64,000 bases of DNA, from contig CACZZZ010000005.1 of assembly GCA_902785825.1 (NCBI GenBank), positions 62,001-126,000 on the forward strand, written 5' to 3'. Made by a program: the position numbers and the translations under genes. Origin of the DNA: an uncultured Bacteroidia bacterium (lineage in GTDB: Bacteria > Bacteroidota > Bacteroidia > Bacteroidales > UBA932). This document shows, piece by piece, positions 1,936 through 50,026 of the stretch; the stretch's first letter is position 1, and every line of letters starts with the position of its first letter. The notes under the pieces were generated by a model. It did not search any database. It saw only the letters and a list, made by a program, of their open reading frames with translations, and was not told the DNA's origin.

Positions 1936-4900
1936 ATGGAGGACATTCGGCAAGCTTTAAGGGAGAGGATCCTAATCCTGGATGGCGCCATGGGCACTGT
2001 CCTTCAGGGGCGCGGTCTCCAAGGCAACAGTGATCTTTTCAATCTCACAAATCCCGAAACCATTGCGGAGATCCATTCTGAATATATTAAAGCCGGAGCT
2101 GAAATAATAACAACTAACTCATTCGGAGCCAATAGGATATCACAAGCGGAACTTGGCTTGGCAGACAGAGCCGCGGACATGGCTGAGGCCGCCGCGAGGC
2201 TGGCTCGGAAGGCCGCTGACAAGGCGGAACGGAAGATCTGGGTGGCAGGCAGCATTGGACCGACAGGAAAGTCCCTGACGCTGCCGCAGAACATCGGCGA
2301 TCCGGTTTTCCGGCCATATTCATTCGATGAGATGGCCTCCGCGTACGAGGAGCAGATAAGGGCTCTCATCGCCGGAGGCATGGATTTGCTGCTGCTTGAG
2401 ACATGTTTCGATGCCCTTAACGCTAAGGCTGCGATTTACGCGGCGTCGCATATTGATAATATCCCTGAGATCATGGTCTCCTTGTCGCTCGGGGACAAGT
2501 CGGGAAGATCTTTGACCGGACAGACCCCGGAGGCATTCTACCGCTCGATCCAGCACTGCTCGCCCCTCTCGTTCGGGCTTAATTGCTCGCTGGGATCAAG
2601 GGATATGATTCCTCTGATCGCTGAAGTGGCCCGATTCGTGGATGGCGCTGTCAGTTGCTACCCCAACGCCGGCCTTCCGGACGCCATGGGTGCCTATGAC
2701 GAGACTCCAGAGGTCATGGCAGAGGCCGTCAGGGAGATGGCTTTGCGTGGATCTGTCAATATCGTGGGTGGCTGCTGCGGCACAACCCCCGCCCAAATCG
2801 CCGCCATCGCCGCCGCCGTCCAGGAACTGCCACCAAGAATCCTCCGCTCCGGGGAGGCTATTGGTGGTCCGTGGAAGCCGTTGTATGTGAGTGGATTGGA
2901 GAGTGTGGAGATTGACAGGAGCAGGAATTTCACGAATGTCGGAGAGAGGACAAACGTGGCGGGCTCAAGGAAGTTCGCGCGCCTGATCGCCTCAGGAGAC
3001 TACGAGGAAGCCTTGCGGATAGCCGCCGGGCAGATCGCGAACGGCGCCTCTATCATCGACATCAACATGGACGACGCCATGCTCGACTCCGCCAAGGAGA
3101 TGGAGACATTCCTACGTCATATTGCCGGAGAACCGGAGGTGGCGAAGGCCGCGATCATGATCGACTCTTCCCATTGGGAGACCATTCTAACCGGCCTGAA
3201 GAACGCCCAGGGCAAATGCGTCGTAAACTCGATATCACTTAAAGAAGGAGAAGAAGTATTCTTATCTAAAGCTCGTGAGATAAAGGCTTTAGGAGCAGCC
3301 TTAATTGTCATAGCATTCGACGAGGAGGGCCAGGCCACGACCTATGACAGGAAAATCGCGATCTGCCAAAGGGCATATTCACTCTTGACGGAAAAGGCGG
3401 GATATTCCCCAACAGACATAATATTCGATGTGAATGTCCTTCCGGTCGGAACTGGTATTCCCGAGCACTCCCGCTACGCCGCCGATTTCATTGAGGCGGT
3501 CAGATGGATCAAGAAAAACCTGCCTGGCTGCCGGACATCGGGAGGCATATCGAACCTGTCCTTCGCGTTCAGGGGCAACAATGCTGTCCGGGAGGCTATG
3601 CACACGGTTTTCCTTTACCACGCCATCAATGCCGGGCTGGACATGGGGATCGTGAACCCTGGGATGCTCAAGGTCTATGACGAGATCGAGCCGGAGCTTC
3701 TGCGGCGCGTGGAGGATGTTATCCTGGATTCGGATCCTGATGCCACTGAGCGGCTGATCGAATATGCCCAGGAGTTGCAATCTGCCGAAGGGAGTATTGG
3801 TGGTCCAACCGCCTCGCTCCGCTCGGCCCCACCGCTCGCTTCGCAAAGCGAAGCTCCGGTCCCCCCTCTTACAGTGCCGAGGGTGGCATGGGTTGGACTC
3901 ACCAATACTCCCTCCGGCGAAATGCCGTCCAACGACACATCTTCCTCCAATGCCTGCGAAGGCGGCCTTTCCTCCGTCGAGGAGCGGATAAAGAGGGCGC
4001 TGGTGAAGGGCGACGCTTCGGGATTGGAGGCGGATCTTCTGAAGTGCCTTGGGCAATATGACGGAGAGGCTTTCAAGGTCATCGACGGCCCCCTGATGGA
4101 TGGCATGGCCCGTGTCGGCGAGCTATTCGGGGCCGGAAAGATGTTCCTGCCTCAGGTCGTCAAATCCGCCAGGACCATGAAAACCGCTGTCGATCTGCTG
4201 CAGCCCCATTTGAAAGGAAACGCGGCCGAGACATCCGAGCGGCCCAAGGTCCTGCTGGCCACCGTGAAAGGAGATGTCCACGACATAGGGAAGAATATTA
4301 CCGGAATAGTATTCACATGCAACGGTTTCGAGGTCACGGACCTCGGAGTCATGGTCCCGAAAGAAACCATTCTCGAGGAAGCCGTCAGGATTGGGGCGGA
4401 CATTATCGGTGTAAGCGGACTGATCACCCCATCGCTTTACCAGATGGAGCTTCTTTGCAAAGACATGGAAGAGTCGGGGATGGACACTCCCCTTCTCGTG
4501 GGTGGCGCGGCGGCTTCCGCGGTTCATACCGCCGTCAAGCTGGCTCCGCTTTACAAGCATGTCTTTTATGGCGCTGACGCTTCCGCATCGGCTGTGCTGG
4601 CAAGCAAACTGGTCTCCGACCGGGAAGCTACGGAAGCCGCTGAGCATGAGCGGCAGAGGGCGCTTCGGGAAGCGTACATGACTTCCAGTCATGGCCAACC
4701 TGAACGGAGCCGAAGAACGGGCATATTCCCGGAAAGCAGCTATATCCACGGCAACCCGTTCAAAAACATTTCCTCGCGACGGCTCCAGGTCGGGGAGGTC
4801 GAAAGGTTCTTTGACTGGAGGATGTTCGCCACGATCCTCGGAGCGAGGAAAGACAAGAACCGTTTGGAATTCATGAGGTTACGGGCCGAAGGAGAGAAGA

Positions 4901-10592: not shown

Positions 10593-12764
10593 CTAAGCCG
10601 TAATCTGGTTTCCGGTGTATAGCTCGTAATACTTTCCTTTCTGCGCGAGGAGCTCGTCATGCCTTCCTCTCTCGATGATACGTCCCCGATCCATCACCAT
10701 GATGTAATTGGCGTTCTGAACTGTCGAGAGCCGGTGGGCTATCACGAAGGTAGTACGGCCTTTCATAAGGGAATCCATGCCCTTCTGGATGAGTTTCTCA
10801 GTGCGGGTGTCGATCGAGGAGGTAGCCTCGTCGAGAATCAGCACGGGCGGATTGGCCACGGCGGCCCTGGCGATGGCCAACAGCTGCCTCTCCCCTTGCG
10901 ACAGGTTACCGCCGTCAGCGGCGAGGATGGTGTCATAGCCTTGAGGTAAACGCCTGATGAATGAGTCGGCATAGACAAGACGGGCGGCCTCCCGGCATTC
11001 CTCGTCGGTAGCGTCCAGACGGCCGTAACGGATGTTGTCCAGCACAGAAGCGGAGAAGAGGCGCGTTTCCTGAAGGACAATTCCGAGGCTTCGCCTCAAG
11101 GAATCTTTGTCGATCCGACGAATGTCGAAGCCGTCGTAGGTTATGGTGCCTTCCTGGATCTCGTAGAAGCGGTTGATGAGGTTTGTGATCGTGGTTTTTC
11201 CAGCCCCGGTGCCTCCGACGAAGGCTATTTTCTGCCCCGGATATGCCGTCAGGCTGATGTCGAACAGCACCTGTTTCCCCTCCACATAGCTGAAATCCAC
11301 ATCCTCCAGACTCACCAAACCCCGCAGTGGTGTCAATATTGCCGGGCGGCCCTCCGGACACGGGCGCGTCCATCCTCGCTTCGCTGCGGCTGAGTACGCC
11401 CTTAGCCTGGAGGCCGCACCGGAGTCATCGGCGTCAGGTCTGGCAAGTCCAGACTCCTCGCTCCGCTCGGCCCCTCCCACTTGCTCCGCAAGCGGGCCCC
11501 TCCCTCTTACGAGCCGAGGGTGGCTACGGTCTGGACTTGCCAGACCTGCCTTTGCCTTCCAGGCCCAGGTGCCGGTGCGGACGGGAGATTCGACAAGAGA
11601 GCCGTCGGGAGCGACGGTGGTGTTGACAAGAGTGACCTTGCCCTCATCGACTTCCTGCGGCTCGTCCAAGAGGCTATAAACCCTGTCCGTGCCGGCGGAA
11701 GCCATCGCGATCGAATTAATCTCATTGGAAATGCTCGAGATCGGCCTCGTGAAGTTCTTCTGGAGAGACAGGAACGCCACCAGAGTACCAAGGGTCAGGG
11801 TAGCGCCACCAATCCCGGACATATACCAGGCCGTCAACCCGCCGATGGCGATAAGCGCTCCGACCACAGCCGTCAGGACATATCCCAGATTGCCGATATT
11901 CCCGTTGATAGGCATCACCATGCTGCCGATCTTGTTGGCGTTGTAGGCGCTGGAACGGAGCCGCTCGTTAAGGACGGAGAAATCCTCGACAGCCTTCTTC
12001 TCATGGCAATATACCTTCACCACACGCTGCCCTGAAACCATCTCCTCGATGAAGCCATTGACAGCGCCGAGAGCCTTCTGTCTTTCCACGAAATAAGCCC
12101 TGGAGATCTTTCCGAGGGCGGTTGTCACTCGCACGGTGAGAGCTGCCATCAGAATGGACACCAGAGTCAAGGGCATCGACAGGACCACCATGGAGACGAA
12201 TGTCGAGATGAGAGTGATCAGGGATTGGAAAAGGTTGGGAACTGTATTCCCTATCACCTGGCGGAGGGTGTCCACATCATTGGTATAGACCGACATGATG
12301 TCGCCGTGGGAGTGGGAGTCAAAATAACTCAAGGGTAGGTCTTCCATGTGGGAAAACAGGCTCTGGCGAAGCTTCAGCATGGTTCCCTGCCCCACGAAGA
12401 TCATTATCAGATGGTATGAATATGATGCCGCGACTCCGACCAGCAGGACAGCCGCCAGCTTGACGAGGGCAACTACCAGAGGTGAGAAGTCAGGAACCGC
12501 CTGCGAGAGCAGCGGAGTGATGTAGTCGTCGATCAGGGTCTTGGTGAACAGAGATGAGGCCAGAGTGGCCAACGCCGAGATCACGATGCAGACCAGCACG
12601 ACCCCGAAACGGAACTTGTAGTTCTTGAATATGAATCTGAAGAGTCTCCAGACAGTCGAACCTTTTCCGAGGCTCTTCTTCATATCCTCCCTGGACATGT
12701 GAGGCTCCCTCACTCCCCCTCTCATCCTGCCGCTTCCCTGCGGCATCTTGCCACTCGCGCTCAT
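10593..12764 (-). CDS. ABC exporter half, ATPase/permease, with repeat insertion in linker
   Basis: 723-residue type-IV ABC exporter subunit: six membrane helices (about 50-350), then an ATPase domain from LVSLEDVDFSY (about 485). Walker A GGTGAGKTT, signature NLSQGERQL, Walker B VLILDEATS with the catalytic Glu, and H-loop IAHRL are all present; the signature is non-canonical (LSQGE). With the next gene it forms a heterodimer in which this half carries the catalytic residues. Oddity: about 110 residues separate the permease and ATPase domains, against about 15 in its partner. The extra sequence (residues about 390-480) is low-complexity and repeat-derived: a palindromic element at 11435-11548 read in reverse orientation and a smaller inverted repeat at 11347-11417. 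Substrate unknown. Confidence 0.9.
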   Translation of the reverse strand: MSASGKMPQGSGRMRGGVREPHMSREDMKKSLGKGSTVWRLFRFIFKNYKFRFGVVLVCIVISALATLASSLFTKTLIDDYITPLLSQAVPDFSPLVVALVKLAAVLLVGVAASYSYHLIMIFVGQGTMLKLRQSLFSHMEDLPLSYFDSHSHGDIMSVYTNDVDTLRQVIGNTVPNLFQSLITLISTFVSMVVLSMPLTLVSILMAALTVRVTTALGKISRAYFVERQKALGAVNGFIEEMVSGQRVVKVYCHEKKAVEDFSVLNERLRSSAYNANKIGSMVMPINGNIGNLGYVLTAVVGALIAIGGLTAWYMSGIGGATLTLGTLVAFLSLQKNFTRPISSISNEINSIAMASAGTDRVYSLLDEPQEVDEGKVTLVNTTVAPDGSLVESPVRTGTWAWKAKAGLASPDRSHPRLVRGRGPLAEQVGGAERSEESGLARPDADDSGAASRLRAYSAAAKRGWTRPCPEGRPAILTPLRGLVSLEDVDFSYVEGKQVLFDISLTAYPGQKIAFVGGTGAGKTTITNLINRFYEIQEGTITYDGFDIRRIDKDSLRRSLGIVLQETRLFSASVLDNIRYGRLDATDEECREAARLVYADSFIRRLPQGYDTILAADGGNLSQGERQLLAIARAAVANPPVLILDEATSSIDTRTEKLIQKGMDSLMKGRTTFVIAHRLSTVQNANYIMVMDRGRIIERGRHDELLAQKGKYYELYTGNQITA
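11347..11417. repeat. small inverted repeat in the ABC linker
   Basis: GCGGCCCTCC (11347-11356) and GGAGGCCGC (11409-11417) are inverted with one extra base. Between them is TCCTCGCTTCGCTG, the same kind of GAGCGAAGC core seen in the other repeats. It adjoins the larger element at 11435 and together they make up the inserted linker. Confidence 0.45.
11435..11548. repeat. palindromic element copy 2, inside ABC exporter gene
   Basis: Perfect 20 bp inverted repeat arms CAGGTCTGGCAAGTCCAGAC (11435-11454) and its complement (11529-11548). Inside: CCTCGCTCCGCTCGGCCCC, hairpin CTTGC-TCC-GCAAG, GGGCCCCTCCCTCTTAC, GCCGAGGGTGGC; the same boxes in the same order as copy 1. The element is in the same plus-strand orientation as in metH, but the host gene is on the minus strand, so it is translated in the opposite sense here. 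Length 114 bp, exactly 38 codons. In the gene frame the two arms encode nearly the same peptide (GLASPD and GLARPD). The minus strand has four G-runs (GGGAGGGG twice). Confidence 0.88.
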
Positions 12765-14926: not shown

Positions 14927-14950
14927 TGGAATGCTGGCAGTTAAATAGCT
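14927..14950. repeat. left direct repeat flanking the RAYT gene
   Basis: TGGAATGCTGGCAGTTAAAT then AGCT; 23 of 24 bases match the copy at 16002-16025, in the same orientation. The two copies bracket the transposase gene. Confidence 0.8.
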
Positions 14951-16001: not shown

Positions 16002-16025
16002 TGGAAGGCTGGCAGTTAAATAGCT
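16002..16025. repeat. right direct repeat flanking the RAYT gene
   Basis: TGGAAGGCTGGCAGTTAAAT then AGCT; one mismatch with 14927-14950. Its first part (16008-16021) is also inverted at 16103-16116 with one mismatch, so it forms the outer arm of a larger palindrome around the hairpin at 16046. Confidence 0.8.
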
Positions 16026-16169: not shown

Positions 16170-18281
16170 TCAGCGGATGCGGAGGTAGTGTGTGACGCAG
16201 GTGTCGGCCTGATAGTCGGGGATAAAGGTCTTGCCGTCCAAGGAGAAACAGCCAGGGCTACCGGCTGAAGCAGGGGCAGCTTGCAGTGCAGGATGGCCAT
16301 CGGGGCCAAGATGCAGGACCGCCTCGTTCCAGCTCTTGATTCCCACAGCCGCCATCACAAGAGGTCCACGCATCAGGACGCCGAGCCGCTCAGGCGACGG
16401 ATCCTTCGCCGCGTTTAGATCCTTCGCTTCGCATAGATCCTTCGCTTCGCTCAGGATGACAACTTGGTCTGGGGCGTAGTCTATGTGCTCCACATAAGGC
16501 ATGATGATTTCGAGGGAGTCGCCGCGGGTCCAGCGCCGGCGAGGGATCTCGAAATAGCTGCAGGGAGTATATTCGGAAGCCAATGACTTGCCGTTGAGCC
16601 GGATATCAAACCCCTCTGTCGCCCAATAAGGGACCCTGAGCTTCATCGTGAAGCGTCTGCTACCCTTTTTCAGCCGTATCACGGACCGCTCCGCCGGCCA
16701 CTCGCACTCCTGTGAAAGGGTCACCCCGCGACGATCCCACCTCGCTTCAGATGGCAGGTACAGGCCCACCCACACGGTGTCCTTTGAGACAAAGTAAGCA
16801 GCCTCCTGGTATTTGACATGGTTCTCCGCCCCGGTACCCCCGCAACAAGATTCCTGGGGAGTCCTGTTGCCCCAGGGCTTGGAAGCGTCGAGCCCGACCG
16901 CATACTGGTAGGTCACCTTGTACTCAGAAGGATGGATCGATCCGACTATTTGGTTGTACAGAACCCTCTCATAATAATCCATGTAACGGGCATCATTCGG
17001 ATCAAAGCAGTTAAGGTCCTTGGTCAGTTTGGCGAGATTATAGGCGCAGCAGGTCTCATTCATCTCGGGAGTCTTACTAGCTATCATACTGGCCATCTGG
17101 GTATATGGTTCCCTGAACATCTCCGAATCCCCAACCCCACCGGTGGCGTAAAGGTACCTGTCCTGGACGAAGTTCCAGAAATTCAGGGCGATATCGTAAT
17201 ATTCCCTCGAACCGCCAGCCCGATAGTTCATCAAGGCGCCGATAACCATGGGGATATGCTGGTTGGCGTGACGGCCATGAATAGAGTCCTCGCCCCGGGC
17301 CAGAGGATCAAAGAACGCCGGGCTGTCGAAAAAACCGGCCGCTTCCAAAAGGCGTTCGCCGGAAGTCCTGTCCTCCACCATCATCGAGAGCCTGGAAAGG
17401 GACTCCTCCATCCCACCCACCTCACCGGCAATGTACATGTTCCACATCTCATAACGGTTGCCTGGGGTGGAACGACGAGTCTCAGAAGTCCCGGATGAAT
17501 CCAAGAATGTCCTGTATTTCAGTCGGTTCCACACCCACAACCCCATATCCTCCGCAATCTTCAGAGCCTTTTGCGATATGGCTTTGTCATCGACAAGGGA
17601 CGATATGTCAATCAGGCCGGCGAGCTGTTTGTGGACAACATAGTACGGAGCCCAGACCCAGTCTTTGTTATTGTAGGGACGATACATCTCGACAAGGACG
17701 CAATGGGCCGCCGGAATAGCGTTGAGATACCCGTAACCATATTCAGAGTAAGACTTTTTGTACTCGTCGAAAGCCTCCCAGGTGCCTTTCATCTCCCGGA
17801 GCTCAGCCTCCGGCGCATAGTCCCTGGCCTCCCGGTAACGCCCGAGATCCTCGTCATAGACAAAGGTCCTTTCCTGGCACTCCCGCAGGCAATCCACCAT
17901 AGTCCTCATCCTGGCCAGAAGGCTGTCTTTCAAGGCGTTGTCATCACACCCGGCATAAGCGAGCGCCAGGGCCGACATATAGTGACCAGACCCGTGGCCT
18001 TTCAGTTTGGTGTCAACAGAGTCCCAGCCTTCTGGCAGAGGGCAACCGGAGGTGTCGAGCCCATAGGTGTCGAGATAATTATACAGGAATTTCCGGACAT
18101 CCCATGAGAGGATCGCCCGGATGTCAAGATCCCGATTGGAAGTGAGTCGGTTCTCCCCTACCACACGTACTTTGGACAACGGAAGTGGTTCAGCCACAGG
18201 CCGATGCGAATCATGCGAACATCCTTCCGAGAATATACCTAGAAGGATGATCACTGGAGCCAGAAGTCTCTTTAAGATCAT
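16170..18281 (-). CDS. GH127 (beta-L-arabinofuranosidase family) lipoprotein with repeat insertion
   Basis: 703 residues, with a lipoprotein signal (LLGIFSEGC, Cys21). The (alpha/alpha)6-barrel has family blocks HANQHIPMVIG, YATGGVGDSEMF and METCC-type NETCCAYNLAKL, then ESCCGGTGAENH further on. GH127 enzymes such as HypBA1 use a zinc-bound cysteine and cleave beta-L-arabinofuranosides, for example on hydroxyproline-rich plant glycoproteins. Oddity: near the C-terminus, between YAPDQ and VLMRGPLVMAAV, about 25 extra residues are encoded by three 18 bp tandem repeats (16400-16453) read as SEAKDL, CEAKDL, NAAKDP. The reading frame continues. It is last in the minus-strand operon, overlapping the DUF362 gene by 4 bp. 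The exact substrate is uncertain. Confidence 0.85.
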   Translation of the reverse strand: MILKRLLAPVIILLGIFSEGCSHDSHRPVAEPLPLSKVRVVGENRLTSNRDLDIRAILSWDVRKFLYNYLDTYGLDTSGCPLPEGWDSVDTKLKGHGSGHYMSALALAYAGCDDNALKDSLLARMRTMVDCLRECQERTFVYDEDLGRYREARDYAPEAELREMKGTWEAFDEYKKSYSEYGYGYLNAIPAAHCVLVEMYRPYNNKDWVWAPYYVVHKQLAGLIDISSLVDDKAISQKALKIAEDMGLWVWNRLKYRTFLDSSGTSETRRSTPGNRYEMWNMYIAGEVGGMEESLSRLSMMVEDRTSGERLLEAAGFFDSPAFFDPLARGEDSIHGRHANQHIPMVIGALMNYRAGGSREYYDIALNFWNFVQDRYLYATGGVGDSEMFREPYTQMASMIASKTPEMNETCCAYNLAKLTKDLNCFDPNDARYMDYYERVLYNQIVGSIHPSEYKVTYQYAVGLDASKPWGNRTPQESCCGGTGAENHVKYQEAAYFVSKDTVWVGLYLPSEARWDRRGVTLSQECEWPAERSVIRLKKGSRRFTMKLRVPYWATEGFDIRLNGKSLASEYTPCSYFEIPRRRWTRGDSLEIIMPYVEHIDYAPDQVVILSEAKDLCEAKDLNAAKDPSPERLGVLMRGPLVMAAVGIKSWNEAVLHLGPDGHPALQAAPASAGSPGCFSLDGKTFIPDYQADTCVTHYLRIR
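16400..16460. repeat. triple 18 bp SEAKDL repeat inside GH127 gene
   Basis: Three consecutive 18 bp units beginning GATCCTTCGC (16400, 16418, 16436), followed by GGATGAC; on the minus strand the last unit reads GTCATCCTGAGCGAAGCGAA. This is the short dispersed repeat also seen at 8639 and 48950. The unit length is a multiple of three, so the frame is preserved. Confidence 0.85.
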
Positions 18282-33322: not shown

Positions 33323-33486
33323 GTGACGAGGTGTCATCCCCTGTCGGAACTCCGTTCGCTTCGCTCACTCCGGCCCCTCCCAACGCCATCAGCGTCCTCG
33401 CTTCGCTCAGACTTGCTGTCGTCGGGCCCCTCCCCCTGCCCCTGTCCGGGGGTGGACAGGTCCTCCAGAGGATGACACCTCGTCAC
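33323..33486. repeat. palindromic element copy 3, after upp
   Basis: Perfect 17 bp arms GTGACGAGGTGTCATCC (33323-33339) and complement (33470-33486), with a second stem CCTGTC / GACAGG inside. It contains two GGCCCCTCCC-type boxes (33372-33381, 33424-33433), two TTCGCTTCGCTC cores and CCGGGGGTGG in the position of GCCGAGGGTGG in copies 1 and 2. At 164 bp it is not a multiple of three, as expected for a non-coding copy. It could also act as a terminator structure for upp. Confidence 0.75.
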
Positions 33487-48817: not shown

Positions 48818-50026
48818 TCAAGCTAAGATTTTCAAGGCTTCGAGGCACATGCGGGTGTTGTGATAGGGGCATTTCCAGAAGCCGGCTTTGGGAGAGGCCA
48901 GATCCGGAGTGACTCCGTCCGCCAAAGTGCCCCAATACCATTCGCCGGTGAGAGATTCTTCGCTTTGCTCAGAATGACATGAGGGGGCAAGGAGGTGGGA
49001 CTTTATCCATCTCCAGCAGTGAAAGGCTCGTGGAAGTCCTTCAGGATCAGAGTGATGTTTCCAGAGCCACAGATTGCCGACGACAGTCTCAGCCTGGACC
49101 CACCACTGACGGGAAGTGTCGGAGGATCCGTTACTGAACAGCTCATAGATCATGGATCCGTCCGGGAGAAGGCCCTCATTGCCAGCGGCTCCAAGAGCCT
49201 TGCAGAAAGGTTTGACATATTCCTCCAGCTGCGGATCACCCAGAGCCTGGGCGCATTCCAGAAGAAGCCAGGATGTCTCAATGTCATGACCGTAAGATAT
49301 GGCCCCGGGAATCACCGTCCAGTCATCCTTGAAATACAGGTGGAGATGACCGGAGGGAGCCATTATCTTCTGGCAGGTGATTCTCACAAGCTCCAGGAGA
49401 GCTTCCCGAAGGAAAGGATCGGGCCAAACCTTATACAAATTGGCATACGCCTCCATCAGGTGGAGGTGCGAATTCATCGTCTTGTCCGCGTTGATGTCAT
49501 GGGCTGAGAGCGACATGTCCTCAAGCGAAGAGAAGTCTCTCGAAAGGGCCTCCGTGTAACCGCCAGAAGCGAAATCCCGGAACTTGCGCTCGACAATCGC
49601 GAAAAGCCCAGTGGCGACATCCAGATCCACCTTGTCCGAGGTGACCTTGTACAGCTCGCTGAAGGCGTATATGGCGAAAGCCTGGGCATAGAGCTGCTTC
49701 TTCGTGTCCAAGGGCGAGCCCTCAGAGGAAGCGCTCCAATAGACTCCCCCATTGTCCTTATCCACAAGATAAGAGACGAACCAATCTCTGGCGTGGAGGG
49801 CGGCCTTTAAGTATTCATCCTTTCCAAGAAAGGCGTATGCGGCTGCGAATGACCAGATTATCCTGGCGTTAAGTATCTCACCCCTGGGGGCTTCTTCGCT
49901 GATCTTACCATCAGACGTCACCTCCCCGTAGAAACCTCCTGAAGGATCCTCAAGGGCAAGCCAGAAGGGCAGGATATTCCCTTCCAGCTCAGACAGGATC
50001 TCTTTTGGGAAAAGGCTGGTGTCCAT
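48818..50026 (-). CDS. N-acylglucosamine/cellobiose 2-epimerase family (likely mannobiose 2-epimerase) with repeat insertion
   Basis: 402 residues of the AGE (alpha/alpha)6-barrel family: MNSHLHLMEAYANLYKVW, SYGHDIETSWLLLECA, GEWYWGTLADG and FWKCPYHNTRMCLE carry the catalytic histidines and substrate-binding residues of cellobiose/mannobiose 2-epimerases. Next to GH130 and a GPH symporter it should convert mannobiose to mannosylglucose. Oddity: between RWIKSHL and GEWYWG the protein reads LAPSCHSEQSEESLT, encoded by a dispersed repeat (48950-48983); homologues have only a few residues at this turn before GEW(F/Y)W. Frame is intact. Confidence 0.87.
   Translation of the reverse strand: MDTSLFPKEILSELEGNILPFWLALEDPSGGFYGEVTSDGKISEEAPRGEILNARIIWSFAAAYAFLGKDEYLKAALHARDWFVSYLVDKDNGGVYWSASSEGSPLDTKKQLYAQAFAIYAFSELYKVTSDKVDLDVATGLFAIVERKFRDFASGGYTEALSRDFSSLEDMSLSAHDINADKTMNSHLHLMEAYANLYKVWPDPFLREALLELVRITCQKIMAPSGHLHLYFKDDWTVIPGAISYGHDIETSWLLLECAQALGDPQLEEYVKPFCKALGAAGNEGLLPDGSMIYELFSNGSSDTSRQWWVQAETVVGNLWLWKHHSDPEGLPRAFHCWRWIKSHLLAPSCHSEQSEESLTGEWYWGTLADGVTPDLASPKAGFWKCPYHNTRMCLEALKILA
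48950..48983. repeat. short SERSEES-type repeat inside epimerase gene
   Basis: Minus strand reads TGTCATTCTGAGCAAAGCGA then AGAATCTCTC, giving peptide CHSEQSEESL. Same repeat as at 8639 and 16436 with one change in the core. The insertion is in frame. Confidence 0.8.

Follow-up and report, generated by a model that had tools for sequence, protein, structure and literature searches.

A peptide insertion in an epimerase of an uncultured Bacteroidales bacterium is an in-frame copy of a dispersed, probably mobile, 27-bp DNA hairpin

The peptide CHSEQSEES, found within a predicted epimerase of an uncultured bacterium of the Bacteroidales, is one in-frame copy of a dispersed DNA hairpin of 27 bp, or nine codons, with the consensus TGTC-AT[TC]CT-GA-GC-GNA-GC-GA-AG[AG]AT-CT. 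This element is a discrete unit with a covarying hairpin stem; it occurs in bursts in some species, and its in-frame copies in essential genes have empty counterparts in orthologues. We consider it quite likely that the peptide is the translation of a non-autonomous, REP-like mobile hairpin. Due to the nine-codon length and four stop-free frames of such an element, its insertion into a gene would usually add a short peptide and leave the reading frame intact. Selection would then remove copies from conserved protein cores, and copies in variable loops, in linkers and just past stop codons would survive, possibly being trimmed or expanded later in multiples of three. The element would be mobilised in trans as a single-stranded hairpin, probably by an HUH-type nuclease whose gene does not adjoin the repeat.

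The open reading frame of the epimerase reads ...KSHLLAPS-CHSEQSEES-LTGEWYW..., and the relatives examined lack the segment; this bears out an earlier proposal, made from the DNA alone (the sequence-only reading), that CHSEQSEESL is an insertion ahead of GEWYW. The host matches the Pfam family GlcNAc_2-epim (2e-36), scores 274 bits with the NCBIfam model EpiA, below its 800-bit cut-off, and yields an AlphaFold model (mean pLDDT 91.8) that resembles cellobiose 2-epimerase structures with a TM score of about 0.9 (Foldseek). Cellobiose 2-epimerases such as 3wkf and 9l8i share the fold and 42-43% identity with the host over nearly the full length but, unlike it, have no insert between the helix and GEW; indeed, the segment is missing from every aligned cellobiose 2-epimerase with a solved structure. 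The catalytic centre of AGE and cellobiose 2-epimerases consists of three histidines (PMC5726027), which align to H247, H389 and one residue of the H187-H189 segment. H189, H247 and H389 are invariant in our alignment, and the protein thus possesses both the fold and the active-site histidines of the AGE family. GEW is invariant as well. However, since PMC5726027 names the three histidines and not GEW as catalytic, a location of the insert next to a catalytic loop is not established, and the sequence-only reading overstated the role of GEWYW, a conserved segment. The model shows the insert as a loop of low confidence behind the preceding helix, with pLDDT values below 50 at residues 351-355, and accordingly predicts it to be disordered. 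Among the species examined it occurs in this one only, the nearest relative (76% identity) being without it. Most likely, we infer, the insert is a tolerated passenger and not a regulatory device.

The window, i.e., the whole stretch of 64,000 nucleotides that was analysed, holds two matches to the element, where shuffled sequences predict 0.00 (pattern search; Table 1). The sequence-only reading had counted two in-frame insertions of such a repeat, and this is correct for the DNA; the frames differ, however, and the resulting peptides are CHSEQSEES in the epimerase and VILSEAKDL in the GH127-like protein. Its tally of two insertions was too low, as two in-frame copies of a GC-rich repeat that shares the GAGCGGAGCGA core of the element are present besides. 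The GC-rich copies in the MetH and ABC transporter genes lie in interdomain linkers, the latter in frame and separating the membrane domain from the ATPase domain; this dispersed repeat also occurs at 33356-33408, and its peptide, SLRSAPPLAS...APVPPLTVPRVAW, recurs near the fmt gene as well as in many locations of related genomes. A gene for a Y1 transposase directly adjoins the element-bearing GH127 gene. The only known RNA families detected in the window were two tRNAs.

Table 1. Positions of the hairpin element, its host genes and other repeats or transposase genes in the window
Feature	Position	Strand	Basis or remark
27-bp hairpin element (TGTCATTCTGAGCAAAGCGAAGAATCT), CHSEQSEES frame, loop variant GCAAAGC	48953..48979	minus	pattern search
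Host: AGE-superfamily / cellobiose 2-epimerase-like protein, 402 aa	48818..50026	minus	Pfam, NCBIfam, AlphaFold
Second 27-bp element, CC/GG stem type, VILSEAKDL frame	16435..16461	minus	pattern search
Degenerate tandem repeats (two) of the 3' half of the element (CEAKDLNAAKDP), 18-nt period	16399..16434	minus	
Host: GH127-like beta-L-arabinofuranosidase family protein, 703 aa	16170..18281	minus	Pfam 4e-60
Related GC-rich repeat, GAGCGGAGCGA core, in frame between the pterin-binding and B12-binding domains of MetH	3803..3833	plus	
Second GC-rich repeat copy, GAGCGGAGCGA core, in minus-strand ABC transporter gene	11447..11477	plus	
Y1/IS200-like transposase, 313 aa	15030-15971	minus	own 17-nt repeats at 14933-14949 and 16008-16024

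A pattern search of the 2.69-Mb genome retrieved 107 copies of the element (59 + 48), and none (0 + 0) from the reversed control. In an alignment of 96 distinct genome copies, the set used for the placement counts below as well, the edges are sharp at exactly 27 bp and the flanks are nearly random. One loop base is free, with A, T, C and G all occurring, and positions 6 and 22 change jointly (T-A in 54 copies, C-G in 42, no mismatches). Further stem variants are found across the phylum: among 38 distinct variants from those searches, 96.6% of the stem cells are paired and 47 double changes are observed, compared with 9.9 in shuffles, and every measure of covariation collapses when the pairing partner is slid along the sequence. 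When the search was relaxed so that only TGTCAT, CGNAG and ATCT were fixed and 6 + 6 inner bases were free, GA/GA was kept at the same two places in 57 of the 67 distinct matches listed, and all three outer pairs were Watson-Crick in 48 of them, where about one would be expected. What is conserved, then, is a hairpin that combines a GNA loop with two GA steps opposite each other. Folded as one strand, the element has a 5' TGTC tag (present in 95 of the 96 copies), a 5-bp stem, two opposed GA steps forming tandem G.A mismatches, a 2-bp stem, the GNA loop and a CT tail. The GCGNAGC core has the sequence of a DNA mini-hairpin well known for its high stability. The computed folding energy of the single strand is weak (-1.9 kcal/mol) and does not improve on that of shuffles, under a model that may not credit tandem G.A pairs or GNA loops, so that the stability of the hairpin itself is not demonstrated. 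No inverted pairs of copies within 200 bp occur among the listed genome positions. At 10 loci, the element is followed by extra copies of its 3' half, spaced by 15, 18 or 21 nt (once 17), which always lie on the 3' side and have the same stem type as the complete element.

A home-made codon-usage gene caller, which assigns 95% of the window as coding, places 45 of the 96 copies inside genes and 41 between genes. The suggestion of the sequence-only reading that such repeats have spread through the proteins of this genome is thereby well founded. The intergenic copies have a median distance of 4.5 nt from the 3' end of a gene, and at ten copies the end of the gene reaches two bases into the element, which would be expected if the element supplied the AG of a TAG stop codon. 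Copies inside genes are enriched in the CC/GG stem type and copies elsewhere in the TT/AA type (28:17 versus 14:37, p = 9e-4), possibly reflecting two waves of spread. Four of the six frames of the element are free of stops, and internal copies use these, none of them being read in the TGA-containing sense frame. There are 34 internal copies in sense and 11 in antisense orientation (p = 8e-4). Hosts backed by Pfam or ortholog alignment comprise dapF, ksgA, murE, relA/spoT, ugd, priA, rmlB, lplA, citrate lyase ligase, a U32 peptidase, an ABC-F-like ATPase, a beta-galactosidase and a copy-rich dehydroquinase/EPSP synthase gene.

The clustering of intergenic copies a few bases past stop codons, often between co-directional genes, together with the maintenance of the stems by compensatory change, would also suit a domesticated hairpin that serves its host, for instance by ending transcription, stabilising mRNA or binding the nucleoid, the intragenic copies being by-products. 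Yet the element is present in only 51 of 101 congeneric genomes, at 1 to 110 copies each, and its absence from half of the congeners and its patchy numbers sit poorly with a needed function, as do copies deep within essential coding regions. We therefore regard domestication as improbable.

The internal copies themselves carry a signature at the codon level. In the antisense ILR-AQND frame, the free loop base determines whether the codon is TTC (Phe), TAC (Tyr), TGC (Cys) or TCC (Ser), and the Ser-coding G is found in 9 of the 11 antisense internal copies versus 0 of the 85 others (p = 4e-11). The same bias recurs in an independent cross-phylum set (10 of 24 versus 27 of 286, p = 1e-4). It fits selection on the encoded residue, the simplest reading being that an exposed aromatic residue or Cys in the translated insert is selected against; judged from the DNA, the inserts are very probably both translated and under selection. 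In another species, a subfamily whose loop base is G lies between genes, so that a ready-made G type may have inserted first, with selection following. Could the peptide instead have spread for its usefulness in proteins, as a regulatory or localisation tag? The strength of the bias and the retention of the relA/spoT and dapF insertions across several species point that way. However, the element yields four different peptides from its four frames, on both strands and in unrelated proteins, the avoidance of Phe, Tyr or Cys in the loop explains the bias, and about half of the copies lie outside genes; we hold an adaptive peptide to be very improbable.

In related species, the orthologous sites are empty, shared, expanded or nested. 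Of the species compared, this one alone has the rmlB insert; in dapF, relA/spoT, lplA, ugd, murE, the U32 peptidase gene, citC and the beta-galactosidase gene, the element sits at the same place in some close species, and these insertions are therefore probably old. One relative has the 3' half of the element in triplicate, in frame, in its dapF gene (EAKNLEAKNLEAKNL); another has a duplicated stretch of 39 nt, element included, in its ksgA gene. In several close species, the KsgA loop ahead of AIEID/VEID holds unrelated inserts that differ greatly in length, and it resembles a hotspot. Gapped blastn and flank-by-flank comparison gave no clean 27-bp pairs of empty and filled sites: relative to empty orthologues, the net differences in variable loops are +33, +30, +27, +18, +15 or +3, divisible by three wherever coding sequences were aligned and seldom 27, as these loops vary in length anyway. 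Five orthologues from three relatives, in the lplA, murE, ugd and U32 peptidase genes, carry another hairpin, 24 nt long (family CCTGAGCNTGTCGAAGG), nested within the element. Its insertion point in the GNA loop is identical each time, just before the middle base, which places it at the tip of the 27-bp hairpin; either this tip was targeted repeatedly, or the two hairpins spread as one composite unit.

The element reaches far beyond this genus. A search for the 27-mer with a free loop base found it in at least about 14 phylum-level groups among the matches listed, as assigned from record titles and not from a phylogeny. These groups include Nitrospirae, Nitrospinae, Acidobacteria, members of the Bacteroidota, Fibrobacter, Chloroflexi, Lachnospiraceae/Clostridia, Ignavibacteria/Chlorobi, Deltaproteobacteria, Planctomycetes, Verrucomicrobia, Poribacteria, Omnitrophota and Cyanobacteria; the 27-mer was also found in viral contigs and was absent from the E. 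coli genome collection searched. The sequence-only reading, which placed similar peptides in many predicted proteins of Bacteroidota, was too narrow: the unit is a DNA hairpin and not a peptide, and its hosts extend beyond that phylum. Most of the genomes used are fragmented and metagenome-derived, and this might raise the suspicion of an assembly or binning artefact. We give it next to no credence, as copies lie within long contigs and intact reading frames, and single-contig and cultured-strain genomes possess the element as well (e.g., AP021856 and NZ_LMUO01000011).

With regard to what moves the hairpin, Y1 transposases (RAYT/TnpA-REP) come to mind, given that a tag followed by a hairpin is a REP-like architecture (PMC3733652; PMC6006769). 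Y1_Tnp genes are present in 82 of the 101 congeners, and their number correlates with that of the element (Spearman 0.41, p 2e-5, phylogeny being ignored). Against this stands that the Y1 gene in the window is flanked by 17-nt repeats of its own, that eight other Y1 loci have no element of the searched form within 1.5 kb, being flanked by different palindromes, and that five element-bearing genomes, one of them a single contig, have no Y1_Tnp match. Clustering of the ORFs neighbouring copies in many phyla revealed no recurrent transposase; phage structural genes from viral contigs dominate. A mobile hairpin moved specifically by Y1 enzymes is consequently doubtful in our view, and RAYT was set aside as the mobiliser, with no adjacency to copies and a correlation in copy number only.

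The kind of element described here is already known, from in-frame palindromes in Rickettsia and from intragenic REPs. Its closest counterparts are the CGTC-tagged REPs, a superfamily for which TGTC and CCTC have been reported as tag variants (Di Nocera et al., 2013; PMC3733652). Those REPs possess an 8-9 bp stem whose first two positions are complementary A-T residues, a loop of 4-5 nt and a CCA-like tail, mostly form head-to-head dimers and have no known dedicated transposase; over the question of what moves them, Di Nocera et al. arrived at the same impasse. Both are short, dispersed palindromes with an unpaired terminal tag, an AT/AT start of the stem, some copies in ORFs and no dedicated transposase next to the copies. 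In contrast, the stem of the 27-bp element consists of 5 bp, two G.A steps and 2 bp, its GNA loop has 3 nt, its tail is CT, its copies are singletons and not dimers, and it is near-identical across about 14 phylum-level groups among the matches listed. GTAG REPs with RAYT transposases (PMC2817692; PMC6006769) likewise combine a tag with a hairpin, occur in many copies and lie near gene 3' ends, whereas the present element is tagged TGTC and is not adjacent to Y1 genes. The Rickettsia palindromic elements (RPE; Ogata et al., cited in PMC3733652) lie in frame within functional protein genes, and both families are in-frame palindromic repeats in genes for unrelated proteins. They differ in their hosts and in the 27-bp unit of the present family, the comparison being by description. 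Our element may belong with such protein-coding palindromes of expressed genes: its in-frame copies sit in essential genes and show a codon-level bias. Distinctive of the 27-bp family are its apical structure, its tail, the lack of dimers and the extreme conservation across phyla; among the main texts searched, none gave the sequence of the element or its peptides. More tentatively, and with somewhat less than even confidence, we propose a trans-phylum family of protein-compatible selfish DNA, a single-stranded hairpin of 27 nt (nine codons) with GA/GA steps and a GNA loop as its invariant features, that would rely on novel machinery, invade essential genes in frame and offer, at the tip of its loop, a landing site for the 24-nt hairpin.

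If our main interpretation is correct, the peptides CHSERSEES, VILSEAKNL and ILRSAQND found in databases would be footprints of a single mobile hairpin, and annotators should be warned that such segments are not domain signatures. The insertions would constitute a natural experiment on how far protein loops tolerate added sequence. What moves CGTC-type REPs would become a testable question, as the substrate is defined to the base, with its invariant and free positions. A mobile hairpin would then supply proteins, essential enzymes included, with new segments.
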